The notes under the pieces are model-generated. The model was not told where the DNA came from. It saw nothing but the letters and a program-made list of their open reading frames with translations, and did no database searches. Both the position numbers and the translations under genes were made by a program. Of a stretch of 64,000 nt of DNA, positions 4,412 through 23,563 are shown in pieces. The DNA comes from Natronococcus amylolyticus DSM 10524 (GTDB lineage Archaea; Halobacteriota; Halobacteria; Halobacteriales; Natrialbaceae), in the NCBI RefSeq assembly GCF_000337675.1, contig NZ_AOIB01000016.1, positions 75,057-139,056 on the forward strand. The letters are read 5' to 3'. How positions within the stretch are numbered: the first letter of the stretch is position 1; every line of letters begins with the position of its first letter.

Positions 4412-4948
4412 GTGTGTGAGAACTATCTTTTCTCGGAAACGACGAGCACGACGTGGCAACCAACAACTCTCTCGGGAGACCGCCCCCTCCTCGAGGCACA
4501 CCGTGCATCGCCCCTCTTTCGAGCCGAACGGTCGAGAAGCGACGGCGGCTGTTCGAACGCCGAGCTGATGCCCGACACCGCCGAGCGGATCACCGAAGGG
4601 GGCGAAACCGGGACGGTTCCGACCGCCAACCTCGAGGAGGACGACCTCGTGCTTGTCCGACCCGGCTCGAACGTTCCCGCCGACGGCGTCGTCGAGGACG
4701 GGGAGTCGAACGATCTCTGGGATGTCGCCCGGCTCGCGCGCCTGAGTCGGAGGAGCTACCGGAAGATGCAGGAGATCATCGCCTGGGCCGCGGGGTACAA
4801 CGTGTTCGCGTTGCCGCTTGCGGCCGGCGTGCTGGCGCCGATCAGCATCCTGCTCTCGCCGGCTGTCGGCGCGGTGCTGATGTCCGCAAGTACGGTGATC
4901 GTGGCGATCAACGCGCAACTGTTTCGGCGGCCGGAGCTCGTTCTCTGA
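4412..4948 (+). pseudogene. Internally deleted CopB-type P1B ATPase remnant
   Basis: From about base 4562 the frame matches the actuator-domain region of CopB-type ATPases ([10 protein letters not shown], then [20 protein letters not shown]). Near base 4712 it jumps from GESN straight to the C-terminal membrane end ([20 protein letters not shown], then [19 protein letters not shown], which carries the MSxST signature of P1B-3 pumps). The whole middle is gone: TGES, CPx helix, DKTGT phosphorylation loop and ATP-binding domain. The fusion stays in frame, so a 178-codon ORF remains, but it cannot be a pump. The first 50 or so codons (4412-4561) show no homology that I recognise. It stands divergent to the winged-helix gene. 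Confidence 0.85.
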
Positions 4949-4982
4949 TTCGCAGCCGTCGGAATTGTTCGCTCTATCCGCG

Positions 4983-7001
<2,019 letters not shown>

Positions 7002-8090: not shown

Positions 8091-9377
8091 CTACTCGAAG
8101 GCGACGATCCCCTCGGTGGTGGCGACGAGACAGGCGCCCTCGGCGAGCGAGATCGATCGCGCGTAGCCGTCGAGGTCGTGAGTTTCGAGGACCGATCCGC
8201 TCGACAGATCGAGGAGCTGGAGTTCGTCCAGCACGGGAAGAAACACCGTTTCTCCGGCCACTGCCGCCGAACGAATGTGTACGTCCTCTTCCGCTTCCGG
8301 CTCGAAGCTCCACCGTTCGCTCCCCGTCGTCGGATCGAGCGCGTGCAGACTGTCCGAGCGGTCTGTTCCATCCGACTCGACAACCACCAGCACGTCGCTC
8401 GAAAAAGCGATCGGCTCGAGTCCGGGCGGAATGTAGTTTCGCCCGCCTTCGGCGGGCATCTCGGGAGGTGTCTCCGGCGTCACCCAGTCCGTTTCACCGG
8501 TCACTGCGTCGAGGGCGATCGACATCCCGCCGTACGTTCGAAAGAAGAGCCGATCGGTCCCGGCGACGATCCGACCGTACCTGGCGTCGACGATGTCGTC
8601 CTCGTCCGGGTGAAAGTAATCGGAGACGTCAAATTTCCACTGTTGCTCGCCCGTCCTCGCATCGAGCGCAATGATTTTACCGTCCGTACCGGTGTCCACG
8701 ACGACCGTCTCACCGGCGTGGATGGCACCCGAACGGAGGTTGGACGCGACGCTCTCCCGCCAGCACTCCTCACCGGTCCGAGCGTCGATCGCGATCAGCG
8801 CGGGGGAATCCCGGAAGACGAGCAACCCCGCACCGAACACCGGTACGACGTGTCCACTGGCGACGCCGCTCGTCCATCGCTCGCTCCCGTCGGCCGTGGC
8901 CAGCGCTCTCGAAACCGTTTCTCCGCTTGCCCTATCCTGTCCGAGAAAGAGCGAATCGCCGCCCGCCAGAAGCGGGAGGCTGTACCCCGAGGGGGAGACG
9001 GGCTTCGCCCACTGTTCTTCGCCGGTCGACAGTTCGTACGATCTGACGAACTCCGCCGACGGTGTTTCCGGGGCGACGAAAACGGAGCCGTTGATCGCGA
9101 GGGGTTGTTCCGGGTTCTGGAGACGGATACGCCACCGCTCTGACAGTCCGCTCGCGGGTGCGCGTCCGGACGGAACGGCTCGAGTGTTTCCGCCGTCGTA
9201 GCCGGGAAGGGGCCAGTCGGTCGGCGAAGTATCCAGCGGCGTGGGATTACAGTCGTCACCGCGTACGTATCCCGACCCGTACGCGTACCCACCGAGTGCG
9301 CCGACACCCAGACAGGAGCCACAAACGGCCAGAAGCTGGCGCCTGGTGAGGGTTCGACCGTGATCGGTGGAGAACAC
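8091..9377 (-). CDS. PQQ-like beta-propeller protein with Tat-type signal
   Basis: A 428-residue secreted protein. The N-terminus TRRQLLAVCGSCLGVGALGG has twin arginines and a hydrophobic stretch, so Tat export is likely; the Cys pair inside could allow lipid anchoring, but the context is not a clean lipobox. The rest is made of repeats such as ALDARTGEQQWKF, AIDARTGEECW and ALDPTTGSERWSF, the signature of PQQ-like (YVTN/PQQ) propellers, with about six to seven blades. No catalytic residues of PQQ dehydrogenases can be assigned; a structural or binding role is as likely. The GTG start at 9377 lies about 25 bases from a TATA-like element. Confidence 0.85.
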   Translation of the reverse strand: MFSTDHGRTLTRRQLLAVCGSCLGVGALGGYAYGSGYVRGDDCNPTPLDTSPTDWPLPGYDGGNTRAVPSGRAPASGLSERWRIRLQNPEQPLAINGSVFVAPETPSAEFVRSYELSTGEEQWAKPVSPSGYSLPLLAGGDSLFLGQDRASGETVSRALATADGSERWTSGVASGHVVPVFGAGLLVFRDSPALIAIDARTGEECWRESVASNLRSGAIHAGETVVVDTGTDGKIIALDARTGEQQWKFDVSDYFHPDEDDIVDARYGRIVAGTDRLFFRTYGGMSIALDAVTGETDWVTPETPPEMPAEGGRNYIPPGLEPIAFSSDVLVVVESDGTDRSDSLHALDPTTGSERWSFEPEAEEDVHIRSAAVAGETVFLPVLDELQLLDLSSGSVLETHDLDGYARSISLAEGACLVATTEGIVAFE

Positions 9378-9395
9378 GCCACTTGTTTATCATAG

Positions 9396-9407
9396 AAAAT
9401 AAATAAG
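9396..9407 (-). promoter_or_regulatory. TATA-like element of the propeller gene
   Basis: On the minus strand the sequence reads CTTATTTATTTT, centred about 25 bases before the GTG start. That spacing predicts a leaderless transcript and supports the GTG start choice. Confidence 0.55.
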
Positions 9408-9812
9408 TCTTGTCGAATTATTACTCGAGATCGTCTACAGAAATACAGCGAGAGTGCCTCGGAGCTTAACCCCGAGCGAAACTAGTAAGATATATTATGG
9501 GTCTTATCGTATTGGAGAATACAGTTGCGAGGAAATGCGACATCTCTCGAAACCCTGCTACGGCGGACAAGACGGGTGTTGTCGGGCGGGGTGGAGCCGC
9601 CGGCCCTCACGGACGCAGCGGGCGTTCGGGTGTGAATTCCAGCTGATCCCATCTCGGGAAGGTCGAGGGGAATTAAATTCGCCTGCGACGGCACGGCCAG
9701 TTTGGCGTGCGGTCAAGACGGTGAAGCCGCGGGAGTTGTCCCCGCGGTACTTCACGCTTCCGCCGATCGTGGGTTCGCGAGAAGCGCGAGACCGATTGGC
9801 CAACCTCTTCGA
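9408..9812. other. Gene-free stretch, possible mobile-element scar
   Basis: About 400 bases between the propeller gene and a winged-helix gene. Open frames here have no recognisable domains and atypical composition. The part 9540-9720 is followed by a very stable hairpin (separate entry). The arrangement resembles the 3' end of an IS200/IS605-type element in general layout only; no transposase motif can be read. Confidence 0.4.
9721..9755. repeat. Strong stem-loop (13 paired bases, 7-base loop)
   Basis: GTGAAG and CCGCGGG on the left pair with CCCGCGG and CTTCAC on the right around the loop AGTTGTC; only the TA at 9748-9749 is unpaired in the stem. It lies 58 bases downstream of the stop of the minus-strand winged-helix gene. 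It could be a terminator of that gene or the right end (structured RNA end) of a decayed IS605-type element. Confidence 0.7.
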
Positions 9813-10205
9813 TCACCAGGGTCGCTCGAGGTCGACGTCCTCGAGCAGCGACTCGAACTCGGAGAGGTTCGCCGCGGGGGAGACCAGCCCGCGCTCGCGG
9901 TCGTACTCGACGATTCCGTAGCGCTCGAGCAGCGGGAGGTGGGTGCGACACAGCGCGACGTGGACCCGCTGGCGCAGTTCGTGGATCGTCGTCAGGGCGG
10001 TCGTCTCGTCCTCGGTGTCGGCCAGCCAGCCGACGAGGCGCTGGACCGTGATCGGTTCGTCGGAGGCGAGCAGGTACCTGAGCACCTCGCGCCGACGATC
10101 GTTCGCCAGCACACGACCGAACTCTCCCCGGGAGATGGCGCGGAGGTGGACGCTTTCGCCACTGAACCCCTCGGAGACGGCCGTTCGGTCCGGATGGATC
10201 GTCAT
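9813..10205 (-). CDS. Winged-helix regulator-like protein (DUF7344 type)
   Basis: A 130-residue protein with a single winged-helix domain at about residues 28-105: VLANDRRREVLRYLLASDEP, then helices ending at LCRTHLPLLERYGIVEYD, followed by the wing RERGLVSP. The order and the LPLLERYGIV motif match the haloarchaeal DUF7344 group of putative DNA-binding proteins. No ligand domain is present, so what it senses is unknown. It is a single gene, with no obvious operon partner; TBP lies upstream on the same strand, 312 bases away. Confidence 0.8.
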   Translation of the reverse strand: MTIHPDRTAVSEGFSGESVHLRAISRGEFGRVLANDRRREVLRYLLASDEPITVQRLVGWLADTEDETTALTTIHELRQRVHVALCRTHLPLLERYGIVEYDRERGLVSPAANLSEFESLLEDVDLERPW

Positions 10206-10517
10206 CGTCGGTAGAGACTCAGGGATCCCGAATAAACGCGGTCGGTCGTTTCGAACCGTCAGCGCCGGTTCAGATCAGTCTCTGCGATCCAAAGCGGAAT
10301 GAACGGTCTTCAACTCGCACGAACGATCGGATCGAACCCGTCGCTCGTGGATATGTAGGAGTTAAACCGGGATTACCGGTCCGCTCGCGGCGATCGATGG
10401 GTGGGTTGTGTTGGCCGGTGGTTCGAACAGACGGCCTTCGGCAACGTCGGAGTGAACGGTCAGTACGAACGGTTCTCTGTCGGGAGTGTCGCTCGCGAGA
10501 ATCGGTTTCGGAACGCG
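10206..10517. other. Intergenic stretch without recognised gene
   Basis: Lies between the winged-helix gene and the 3' end of tbp. I see no domain-bearing frame, no tRNA cloverleaf and no strong hairpin. Confidence 0.5.
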
Positions 10518-11078
10518 TTACTCGAGCAGGCCGAGGTCCTCGAGGCGCGAGACGATCTTGTCGACGGCGTGTTCGGCGTCCTTGGGCTTCTTCCCGCCGG
10601 TGATGACGAGTTTGCCGGAGCCGAACAGCAGGGCGACGACCTCCGGTTCGTCGAGCCGGTAGACGAGACCGGGGAACTGCTCTGGCTCGTACTCGATGTT
10701 CTCGAGACCCAGCCCGATCGCGATCGCGTTCAGGTTGAGGTTGCGTCCGAGGTCCGCGCTCGTCACGATGTTCTGGACGACGATCTCGGGGTCCTCGTTG
10801 ACCTGGATCTGGAGCTCCCGGAGCTTGTCGAAGACGATACGGAGACTCTCGTGGACGTCGTCGGTGCTTTTCGCACCGGTACAGACGATCTTCCCGGAAC
10901 GGAAGATCAGCGCAGCGGACTTGGGATTTTGCGTGCGGTAGACGAGACCGGGAAACTGCTCGGGGTCGTAGTCGGCCCCCTCGAGGTCCATCGCGACGCT
11001 CTGCAGATCGAGCTCCTGTCCGATGCCGGTCGACGCCACCACGTTTTCGATGTTGATGGTGTCCTTCGGATCCGTCAT
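10518..11078 (-). CDS. tbp: TATA-box-binding protein
   Basis: General transcription factor that binds the archaeal TATA box and recruits TFB and RNA polymerase. The 186 residues form the two direct repeats of the TBP saddle: repeat 1 (about 6-90) with PEQFPGLVYRTQNPKSAALIF and GKIVCTGAKS, and repeat 2 (about 97-183) with PEQFPGLVYRLDEPEVVALLF and GKLVITGGKK. The acidic C-terminal tail is short. Haloarchaea often carry several TBP copies; this one has the standard full length. A clear TATA element precedes it. Confidence 0.98.
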   Translation of the reverse strand: MTDPKDTINIENVVASTGIGQELDLQSVAMDLEGADYDPEQFPGLVYRTQNPKSAALIFRSGKIVCTGAKSTDDVHESLRIVFDKLRELQIQVNEDPEIVVQNIVTSADLGRNLNLNAIAIGLGLENIEYEPEQFPGLVYRLDEPEVVALLFGSGKLVITGGKKPKDAEHAVDKIVSRLEDLGLLE

Positions 11079-18588: not shown

Positions 18589-19782
18589 ATGGCTGTCCCA
18601 CTCGATACCGAAACCGAATCCACGAACGAGGGCGGACCGATCCGACGAAGCGTCGAGATCGAGTACTGGGTGATCGACGAGCGCGGCCGACTGACCGAAC
18701 CCGGAGACCTCCTCGACGCATCCCCGGGCGTCGAACGGGAGTTCGTCGCGCCGCTGCTCGAGATCAAGACGACCCCGTGTGAGTCGACGGACGAACTCCG
18801 CGACGAGCTGTTCGGTCGGCTGGGTCGCGTTCTCCGTCGGGCCGAGGACCGAGGCAAGCGGCTCGTCCCGCTTGCCACTCCGATACACTGCGGTCCGATC
18901 GAGGACCGTCCGAACGAGCGCACGAGGATTCAGGACCGCGTCCTCGGCGAGAACTTCGAGTACGTCCGACACTGTGCCGGAACACACGTTCATATCGAAC
19001 AGCAGCCCGGACGCGAAATCGACCAGTTGAACACGCTCGTCGCACTCGATCCCGCGCTGGCGCTGGTCAACTCCTCGCCGTTCTTTCGCGGGACGAAGCT
19101 GGCCACCGATGCGAGATCGCAGCTGTATCGTCGGCTGGCCTACGCTGCCCTCCCCAATCAGGGGGAGCTGTGGCCGTACGTTCCCGACAGGGAAGCGTGG
19201 GCGAGGCGCGTCGACCGCTGCTACGAGGCGTTCCTGACCGAGGCCGTGATCGCCGGTTTCGACCGGGAGTACGTCCAGTCCCACTTCGAGCCGGAGGGAA
19301 CAGCCTGGACGCCGGTCAAACTTCGCGATCGGTTCTCGACGGTCGAGTGGCGCTCACCCGACACCGCCCTTCCGAGTCAGGTCGTTCGACTCGCCGACGA
19401 AATCACCGATATCGTCGAGCACGCTACCGACGTCGGCGTCCGTATCGAGGGAGAGACCGGCCACGTGAGGAACGACTCGGTCGTTCTTCCGGAGTTCGAG
19501 GCGCTGGAATCGTACGTCGACGCCGCCATCCGGGACGGGCTGTCGTCTGGTCCGGTCCGATCGTATCTGGAACGGATGGGGTTTGACGTGGCGGCGTACG
19601 ACCCGCTCTCGTCCGAACTCCTCTCGGTGGCGGAGCCGACGAGCTCCGAGGCGCGGGCGCTCCGCCTCCGGTATGCGGACCGCCTCGAGCAGGATTTGTC
19701 TCGGGGCGCTCCTTCGACGGCGAGCGACGGGCAAGCGCATCCGAGCAGGGACGAGAGTTCGTTTCGGCCCAACTCCCGGTGA
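18589..19782 (+). CDS. GCS2-family gamma-glutamyl (carboxylate-amine) ligase
   Basis: A 397-residue member of the glutamate-cysteine ligase 2 family, which joins the side-chain carboxyl of glutamate to an amine with ATP. Signatures are RSVEIEYWVID near the N-terminus (the usual GxExE-type strand), LLEIKTTPCES, the substrate-site block HCAGTHVHIEQ, NSSPFFRGT, and STVEWRSPDTALPSQV. Haloarchaea make gamma-glutamylcysteine with a GCS2 enzyme (GshA), but the family has paralogues with other amines, so the substrate is open. The amidotransferase gene follows after 6 bases, an operon-like spacing. Confidence 0.82.
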   Translation: MAVPLDTETESTNEGGPIRRSVEIEYWVIDERGRLTEPGDLLDASPGVEREFVAPLLEIKTTPCESTDELRDELFGRLGRVLRRAEDRGKRLVPLATPIHCGPIEDRPNERTRIQDRVLGENFEYVRHCAGTHVHIEQQPGREIDQLNTLVALDPALALVNSSPFFRGTKLATDARSQLYRRLAYAALPNQGELWPYVPDREAWARRVDRCYEAFLTEAVIAGFDREYVQSHFEPEGTAWTPVKLRDRFSTVEWRSPDTALPSQVVRLADEITDIVEHATDVGVRIEGETGHVRNDSVVLPEFEALESYVDAAIRDGLSSGPVRSYLERMGFDVAAYDPLSSELLSVAEPTSSEARALRLRYADRLEQDLSRGAPSTASDGQAHPSRDESSFRPNSR

Positions 19783-21674: not shown

Positions 21675-22322
21675 TTGGGTGCGTTATCTAACGTCACGGC
21701 CGTGCTCTTCCCCGCCGTGTACGTGCTGTTCTTTCTGGGGACGGTCGGAATCCTCGCGTTCGCTCGCCGTCGATACGCTCGAGAGGTCTGGCTCGCGGGG
21801 TTCTTTACGACGCTGCTGGCCGTCACGCTGGTCGGTATGCCGCTGCTTCCGGTCGTCGACATGCACAAGTTCGCTCAACCGTCCGAGGAGGAAGAGACCT
21901 ACTACGAGATTCGGATGGTCGACGCGTCGGGCGAGGAACTCTGGTTCGACGACCGCTCGACGCCGCCGACGACGGGTACCCGAACGTCGACGGTCGCCGG
22001 TCAGATGGCCGACGAGTACACCGACGACCAGCGCCTCGAGATGGGCGAGTTCTACCTCGAAAACGCCAAGGAACACCGGCAGGCGGTCGAGTCCGGCGAC
22101 CGGTCGGTCACCGATCGGCTGCAGCCGCCGCGGTACGTCGACGACCGCGCATGGACCGCCGCGGAGCTCGAGGGCTACGAGTCGTTCGAGGCGATCCGGA
22201 TCTACGAGCGCACGGTGATCTACAGCGACGACAACACGGCGGTCGAATCGAACGAGGAGCGACCTCGGGTGACGATCGATCCGACCGACGGAACCGTCAC
22301 CGAACACGAGGAGAGCCGATGA
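21675..22322 (+). CDS. Membrane-anchored partner of the HTTM protein
   Basis: A 215-residue protein with two N-terminal membrane segments (about 9-29 and 37-58) and an acidic outer or inner soluble part of about 150 residues containing YYEIRMVDASGEELWFDDRS. No family is recognised. The frame opens with TTG 21675, and an in-frame stop is only four codons upstream; GTG at 21702 is another possible start. Its stop overlaps the ATG of the next gene (ATGA at 22319-22322), so the two are translated as a coupled pair. Confidence 0.7.
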   Translation: MGALSNVTAVLFPAVYVLFFLGTVGILAFARRRYAREVWLAGFFTTLLAVTLVGMPLLPVVDMHKFAQPSEEEETYYEIRMVDASGEELWFDDRSTPPTTGTRTSTVAGQMADEYTDDQRLEMGEFYLENAKEHRQAVESGDRSVTDRLQPPRYVDDRAWTAAELEGYESFEAIRIYERTVIYSDDNTAVESNEERPRVTIDPTDGTVTEHEESR

Positions 22323-23563
22323 GCGCGTTCGTCAACTACGTCGCCGACGACGGCCGTGCCTCGCCGCTCAACCTCGCCGTCGTCCGCGTGTTGCTCGGGA
22401 TGTACGTCATCTGGCGCGTGCTCTCGCTCGAGTGGGCGGCCTACGGGGAGTGGCCGGACTTCCACGTCGACGAGACGATCGGCTTCCTCCACCAGGATCT
22501 CTTCTTTGCGCTGTTGCCCTACCAGCAGTGGGTCGTCGCCGCGTTGCTAGTGCTGTTCGTCGTCGGCTACCGGACCCGCTGGACCGGCGGCCTCGCGAGT
22601 CTCCTGTTGATGCACATGCTTTCGGTCAAGGCGACGATCTACCTGGCCGGAACCGTCGAGTCGCTGTTCGTCTGCTCGTACCTGATCCTCATGTTCGCGC
22701 TGTTCGCCGAGGACGACCGGCTGTCGGTCGACGCGCTCCGCAGGACCGGCGACCGCTCGCTCGAGGAACTGAACGCCGTCCTGACCGACGAGAGAAACCG
22801 GGTCTACAGGATGCGCGCGCTCAAGTGGGGACTGCTCGCGGTCGCGATCATCTACGTCGGTTCGGCCTGGGGGAAGGCGCTGAACGGCCCGCTCGAGATC
22901 TGGCTCTCGGGTGCCGAACTCCAGCGGGATATCCTCTTCAATCGCGAGATAGCCGGCGTGGAGCGACCTATGGGGATGCCGCTTGTCGAAAACGAGCTCC
23001 TGGCGTGGGTTGGCTTCGTCGGCACTGCCGTGGTTCAGGTGTCGCTGTTCGTCGCCGCGGTTCTCGGCCTCTCGGTGACGCTTCCGATCCTCGGGATAAT
23101 CGGGTTCCACGTCTCGGTGATCCTCACCCTGGGGCTGTACTTCATCGACATGATCCTCGTCCTCTCGCTGTTTGCCGCCTGGGATCTTGCCTATCGGCGA
23201 CTCGCGGCTGACGCGGACGACGAGGCGACGGTTGTGTACGACGATCGCTGTCACGCGTGTGCCCGCGTGCTCGTCCCCTTCGCCCACCTCGACGGCACCG
23301 ACTCGGTTCGGTTCGTTCCGCGATCCGACGCCCCCGCCGAGCTGGCCGATCGCGACGCGGCACTGACCCTCTCAGACGACGGGGAGATCTCCGAGGGGTA
23401 CGAGGCGTTCCGTCGACTGATCGGGAAGTTTCGGCTGCTGGCGCCCATCACGTGGCTGATGGGCGTGTCGCCCCTTCGAACGGTCGGAACCCGTGCCTAC
23501 GACCGTGTCGTTCCCGATCGTCGTCGATATCGCTCGGACGCGCCGGAACCCGACAGCTCCTGA
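22319..23563 (+). CDS. HTTM membrane domain fused to DCC/DUF393 redox domain
   Basis: A 414-residue protein. Residues 1 to about 300 form an HTTM-type domain (the membrane part shared with vitamin K-dependent gamma-carboxylase), with segments such as LAVVRVLLGMYVIWRVLS and LALGLYFIDM-like helices late in the domain. Residues from about 305 match the DCC/DUF393 thioredoxin-like family, with the motif VVYDDRCHACARVL holding CxxC. The combination suggests a membrane quinone- or thiol-linked redox function. The ATG at 22319 overlaps the preceding stop, so both proteins are likely made together. The biochemical role is unknown. Confidence 0.85.
   Translation: MSAFVNYVADDGRASPLNLAVVRVLLGMYVIWRVLSLEWAAYGEWPDFHVDETIGFLHQDLFFALLPYQQWVVAALLVLFVVGYRTRWTGGLASLLLMHMLSVKATIYLAGTVESLFVCSYLILMFALFAEDDRLSVDALRRTGDRSLEELNAVLTDERNRVYRMRALKWGLLAVAIIYVGSAWGKALNGPLEIWLSGAELQRDILFNREIAGVERPMGMPLVENELLAWVGFVGTAVVQVSLFVAAVLGLSVTLPILGIIGFHVSVILTLGLYFIDMILVLSLFAAWDLAYRRLAADADDEATVVYDDRCHACARVLVPFAHLDGTDSVRFVPRSDAPAELADRDAALTLSDDGEISEGYEAFRRLIGKFRLLAPITWLMGVSPLRTVGTRAYDRVVPDRRRYRSDAPEPDSS

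Follow-up and report, generated by a model that had tools for sequence, protein, structure and literature searches.

The window analysed here, a 64,000-nucleotide stretch of the Natronococcus amylolyticus DSM 10524 genome, contains two overlapping genes, ORF A and ORF B (table 1), which raise the question of whether a small membrane protein and an HTTM-DCC fusion protein form one molecular system and, if so, what such a system would do. An earlier note on this DNA had described a protein with two transmembrane helices overlapping an HTTM-DCC protein by ATGA, and the overlap is as it described. A GTG codon at 21718 is a possible alternative start of ORF A. The pair lies between a divergent aldo/keto reductase gene upstream of A and a DUF460 gene downstream of B, both of which are outside the unit, and a scan for sigma-70-type promoters and terminators, with a model unsuited to an archaeon, found none. 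The B protein is 92% identical to that of Natronococcus sp. A-GB1. The genome itself contains three copies of the pair; in the third (L008:4380-6496, on C31 of genome G000), the frame of B breaks at the HTTM-DCC border beside a single N and is open in the relative from G383 (L030). This copy was left out of the alignment of B, which comprises 31 proteins. Upstream of the pair, at a distance of a few genes, is a gene encoding a member of glutamate-cysteine ligase family 2 (GCS2; 18589-19782), and in G202 a relative lies downstream of the pair, at approximately 2.4 kb (L048:11836-12948); this proximity could reflect a thiol link or chance.

Table 1. Features of the ORF A-ORF B locus, in positions of the window
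Feature	Position	Strand	Residues	Description or basis
ORF A	21675..22322	+		215 aa, TTG start; obligate partner; two membrane helices and extracytoplasmic alpha/beta domain (predicted)
A membrane helix 1	21678..21758	+	2-28	Predicted model
A membrane helix 2	21771..21833	+	33-53	Predicted model
A extracytoplasmic domain	21876..22319	+	~68-215	Predicted model; membrane side inferred from charge counts
ATGA start/stop overlap, A with B	22319..22322	+		Four bases shared
ORF B	22319..23563	+		HTTM-DCC fusion, 414 aa, ATG start
B HTTM (GGCX-like) domain	22343..23218	+	9-300	Eight helices; predicted structure and profile-profile comparison
B invariant Lys186 codon	22874..22876	+	186	Aligned to GGCX Lys218 through haloarchaeal HTTM family
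B DCC1-like domain (PF04134)	23231..23527	+	305-403	E 2.4e-9; 38.8 bits (cut-off 27.8)
B CxxC motif, CHAC	23249..23260	+	311-314	Sequence

We first consider whether the two genes belong together. Before weak matches were removed, single-sequence searches across the order (392 genomes) placed A in 27 genomes and B in 29; once they were removed, both remained in an identical set of 25 genomes. The weak A matches (G282, E 2.8e-5; G354, E 3e-4) lie inside frames of 1331 and 1407 aa, and those of B (G023, G315, G336, G122, and G346; E 2e-5 to 8e-4) were rejected as true B because they are fused HTTM proteins; the second pieces of one B gene in G000 and G206 were also left out of the B count. A profile search with A returned the identical 25 genomes and no additional place. 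B directly follows A at all 32 places at which A occurs in these genomes, and A is present at 32 of the 33 places with B, the exception being a 213-aa fragment of B in G094 (L055) that adjoins a transposase-like gene. The earlier note would have taken absence of the partner from most genomes carrying the fusion as a refutation; A is missing at this one place only, and this check does not refute the proposal. The occurrence of the same two genes in the same order at 32 places in 25 genomes argues that their pairing is more than chance, and A and B form an obligate pair.

The genes overlap to some extent in 28 of the 32 pairs and by exactly four bases in 21 (window included), a count biased towards four because the start codon closest to a four-base overlap was chosen near each match. 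The largest gap, 109 nt, is found in G077 (L057), in which A is divided between two frames and gives two profile matches; a broken reading frame of A would explain this unusual distance. A further pair is located on a plasmid of Halobaculum halobium, where the annotation gives one hypothetical protein and one DUF393 protein. A profile search across 294 genomes of the phylum recovered genuine B in three genomes only, all from the same order; in four of the seven matching genomes the matches were weak and lay in frames of 529-628 aa, which we take as fused HTTM proteins. Distances among A homologues track those among B homologues (r 0.94, reached by none of 2000 permutations), as expected for co-inherited neighbours. 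In five comparisons dN/dS is below 1 for both A (0.17-0.56) and the HTTM part of B (0.17-0.31); for the DCC part it is 0.27-0.39 in four comparisons and 1.14 in one with few changes.

The family of the membrane domain of B is the second question. Neither Pfam nor NCBIfam gives an HTTM match for B, as a single sequence or for any of the 31 members: none exceeds the gathering cut-off of PF05090, which reflects a detection threshold and not a biological feature, and one fragment of a B relative (L055, G094) scores 27.2 bits against a cut-off of 27.7. That locus (L055:8449-9411, 10202-10843) encodes a B protein without DCC, then the transposase-like gene, then fragments of another B and of DCC. 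Sequence searches of the PDB with B or its profile found no match. The AlphaFold2 model of B (pLDDT 85.2, pTM 0.85) has eight helices, and GGCX structures occupy rows 1-16 of its Foldseek results, at E-values (0.03-0.56) that do not reach 0.001. VIA comparison with the same model gives Z-scores of 10.9-15.1 for GGCX (15.1 over 252 residues) and 8.3 for the best non-GGCX chain. Profile-profile comparison of B with 18 haloarchaeal PF05090 proteins is significant (E 3.2e-12), with a score of 94.8 against 21.6 for the best decoy among 43 alignments of neighbouring genes. Together, the profile comparison and the predicted fold place B in the HTTM (GGCX-like) superfamily. The HTTM-DCC fusion of the earlier note is therefore borne out, its DCC part by Pfam and its HTTM part by structure and profile-profile comparison, as is the suggested kinship with vitamin K-dependent carboxylase (GGCX), given the predicted fold and the lysine described below.

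Four residues of B are conserved in all or nearly all of the 31 proteins (R23, 31; G83, 31; D138, 29; K186, 31), and each matches a column that is invariant in 36 of 36 HTTM proteins. A PDB search with the haloarchaeal HTTM profile finds human GGCX (E 7.8e-5), and the lysine column falls on the second of two adjacent GGCX lysines, which is K218 when counted from N158; the equivalence of K186 and K218 is thus drawn indirectly, with the haloarchaeal HTTM family as the bridge between B and GGCX. PMC12589487 describes K218 as the active base for vitamin K hydroquinone (VKH2) and His160 as sitting at the Glu site. The corresponding segment contains no conserved histidine in either B or the haloarchaeal HTTM family. 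The retention of the K218 equivalent without that of His160 suggests that the quinone-activating part of the enzyme is kept and the glutamate-specific part is not, and leaves gamma-glutamyl carboxylation itself unsupported.

Charge counts suggest how the two proteins may be placed in the membrane. The loop of B at residues 129-165 contains 5.4 K/R per sequence versus 2.3 in the equally long loop 189-225, a difference that would place the N-terminus and the DCC domain in the cytoplasm and Lys186 near the outer face. The inter-helix loop of A has 1.78 K/R per sequence in eight residues and its N-terminus 0.03, from which the loop is read as cytoplasmic and the large domain as external. This external domain is predicted to contain strands at residues 73-83, 171-183, and 190-202 and helices at 104-113 and 117-140 (model pLDDT 80, pTM 0.63). 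A has no family above cut-off in Pfam or NCBIfam and no convincing fold match in the PDB (Foldseek best E 0.82, VIA best Z 4.5); that the GGCX luminal domain is absent from this fold search is no evidence against its equivalence to A. The only sequence matches of the A profile in the PDB, LRRC8A at E >1 and a VP1 chain, were taken as chance.

A possible counterpart of A is found in the fused-type HTTM proteins of haloarchaea, in which the HTTM domain is followed by a further hydrophobic segment and an external domain in 36 of the 36 proteins cut, a count that is not unbiased because these proteins were picked by a profile of that domain. B has no such domain and ends after HTTM and DCC, and none of 41 loci with a fused-type HTTM gene has A next to it. 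The two external domains appear alike in pattern by eye and can be force-aligned end to end; however, homology is unsupported, as the profile score (22.1) falls within the range of decoys (up to 23.5). C471 and C517 of the fused-type domain (L066:2323-3909) are invariant there, not conserved in A, and possibly form a disulfide. PMC12589487 describes the linker of GGCX to its luminal domain as helping to form the vitamin K pocket, which would explain why an HTTM core cannot work alone. Based on the layout of these proteins, we infer that A may be the equivalent of the GGCX luminal domain and of the fused external domain.

We hypothesize, at roughly even odds, that A and B together constitute a two-subunit HTTM-type enzyme that uses menaquinol to modify an extracytoplasmic substrate. 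B would provide the catalytic core, an HTTM domain of eight helices, with a DCC domain facing the cytoplasm at its C-terminus, and A, anchored by its two helices, would hold the substrate over the quinone pocket in trans, a role served in cis by the luminal domain of GGCX or the fused C-terminal domain of the haloarchaeal proteins. Haloarchaea use menaquinone, and menaquinol, as the vitamin K of these cells, may bind in the membrane. Lys186 would deprotonate it, O2 would react, and the resulting strong base would modify the substrate outside the membrane. The DCC domain would be an optional cytoplasmic thiol-redox accessory that, for example, re-reduces the cofactor. The cofactor, the modification chemistry, and the roles of A and DCC are all proposed here on indirect grounds. 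A bolder form of this hypothesis, which we offer tentatively and think somewhat less probable than its being wrong, describes a split two-subunit relative of the vitamin K carboxylase in which respiratory menaquinol drives a post-translational or lipid modification at the outer face, with an obligate substrate-holding subunit and a thioredoxin-like domain that serves as a built-in cofactor reductase.

The DCC domain bears most directly on an alternative in which its CxxC motif would exchange disulfides with quinone through the HTTM domain, in the manner of DsbB or VKOR. DCC is the sole curated family match of the pair, its Pfam score is above cut-off, and both cysteines are present in 23 of the 31 B proteins. 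DCC genes also recur beside HTTM genes: a stand-alone DCC gene adjoins at least 7 of 41 fused-type haloarchaeal HTTM loci (gap -58 to 157 nt), a lower bound because flanks of approximately 0-3 kb were searched by motif. However, four B proteins have a DCC domain with a broken motif and four have no DCC domain, whereas K186 is present in all 31. Two of the four without DCC belong to one genus (G077, G093) and that of G094 is followed by the transposase-like gene, so there were fewer loss events than these counts would suggest. The loss of the motif or of the whole domain indicates that CxxC is not core and that DCC is accessory; the proposal of the earlier note that CxxC makes the pair a thiol-redox complex is not supported, given the conservation of the lysine. 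In addition, the charge counts would place DCC in the cytoplasm, whereas exported proteins would be oxidatively folded on the opposite side, and VKOR structures reach Z-scores of only 5.6-5.7 with the B model. We consider this alternative unlikely.

The linkage of DCC to HTTM is not peculiar to the A-B pair. Five DCC domains are encoded in the Natronococcus amylolyticus genome, three of which are in copies of B, and one is encoded 20 nt from a gene whose HTTM product has the external domain fused to it, so that the same three modules are present in a different arrangement. The fifth (L129:3257-3997, + strand, on C5 of G000) has as a neighbour, at approximately 0.7 kb, a gene for a lipase maturation factor (4676-6310, - strand; PF06762, PF25179), which encodes another multi-pass membrane family.

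The surroundings of the pair were compared, as the earlier note had proposed: gene neighbours differ between loci, the recurring ones are housekeeping genes common to related genomes, and the unit consists of two genes only. No conserved substrate gene was found beside the pair in the 31 loci examined, and a rough gene caller revealed no small precursor-peptide gene recurring near it. Strongly acidic Tat lipoprotein genes are found downstream of the pair at L008:6562-7014 and 8467-9894 and in L030, neighbours limited to two related loci (C31 and G383) of the 31. The pair might instead mature a secreted antimicrobial peptide, by processing or modification, in the way that SdpA/SdpB do in Bacillus or HTTM proteins do in linaridin clusters. 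SdpA-SdpB likewise combine a small protein with an HTTM protein. In favour of the comparison, YitP and YitO, homologues of SdpA/SdpB, have a proposed role in processing a toxin precursor (PMC6818787), and linaridin clusters contain an HTTM gene (PMC9927463). Against it, the pair sits among unrelated genes, with no small precursor gene recurring in the rough gene calling, the SdpB model TIGR04033 has no match in the Natronococcus amylolyticus genome or in the NCBIfam scan of B, and the SdpA family is not among the Pfam and NCBIfam matches of A that were listed. Peptide maturation therefore seems improbable, to about the same degree as the disulfide exchange discussed above.

It is also conceivable, with a still smaller likelihood, that the pair is catalytically dead and functions as a membrane receptor, scaffold, or immunity unit. 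A patchy, multicopy, and partly plasmid-borne distribution and the decay of DCC in some lines would fit such a unit; purifying selection and the conservation of K186, R23, G83, and D138 across both HTTM families would not. Genuine gamma-glutamyl carboxylation, with acidic secreted proteins as the substrates, suggested by the GGCX fold, the K218 equivalent, and the polyacidic lipoprotein genes just downstream in the two loci, is very improbable given the lack of a conserved His160 and the restriction of these neighbours to two related loci, acidic lipoproteins being common in haloarchaea.

If the two-subunit menaquinol-dependent enzyme is the right model, vitamin K-type chemistry in archaea would run on ordinary respiratory menaquinone. 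HTTM proteins are widespread in microbes and, to our knowledge, their role outside animals is largely open. As a natural two-subunit form that has retained the quinone-activating lysine and not the glutamate-site histidine, the pair would be a testable system for the ancestral chemistry, one in which the core (K186 and partner A) stands apart from a dispensable redox tail. The earlier note was right to call the complex undescribed as far as the literature was searched, in which no paper mentions HTTM together with archaea. The two domains themselves, HTTM and DCC, are known, and HTTM-DCC fusions may already be present in domain databases; what is new is a putative HTTM enzyme in two parts, which comes with an obligate partner and carries DCC in fused form.

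Each known relative shares part of this architecture. SdpA/SdpB resemble the pair in joining a small protein to an HTTM protein and differ in that B has a DCC fusion, that the pair has no match to the SdpB model and, among the matches listed for A, none to the SdpA family, and that rough gene calling shows no recurrent precursor-peptide neighbour. DCC1-like thiol-disulfide oxidoreductases (PF04134) share with B a domain above cut-off and, in the window copy, the CxxC motif; unlike them, the domain in B is fused to a membrane enzyme, and the motif has been lost in part of the family. Haloarchaeal PF05090 proteins, present in 75 of 146 haloarchaeal genomes, have a homologous HTTM domain with identical invariant residues and sometimes an adjacent DCC gene; in contrast to B, they are approximately 500-540 aa in length, have a fused external domain with two invariant cysteines, lack an A partner in 41 loci, and have DCC unfused in those read. 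Finally, B shares with GGCX the predicted membrane-domain fold and a lysine equivalent to K218. However, GGCX has nine helices according to PMC12589487 and the B model eight, B has no conserved counterpart of His160, and B lacks the fused luminal propeptide-binding domain of GGCX, whose place may be taken by the separate subunit A, and has an added DCC domain predicted to face the cytoplasm.
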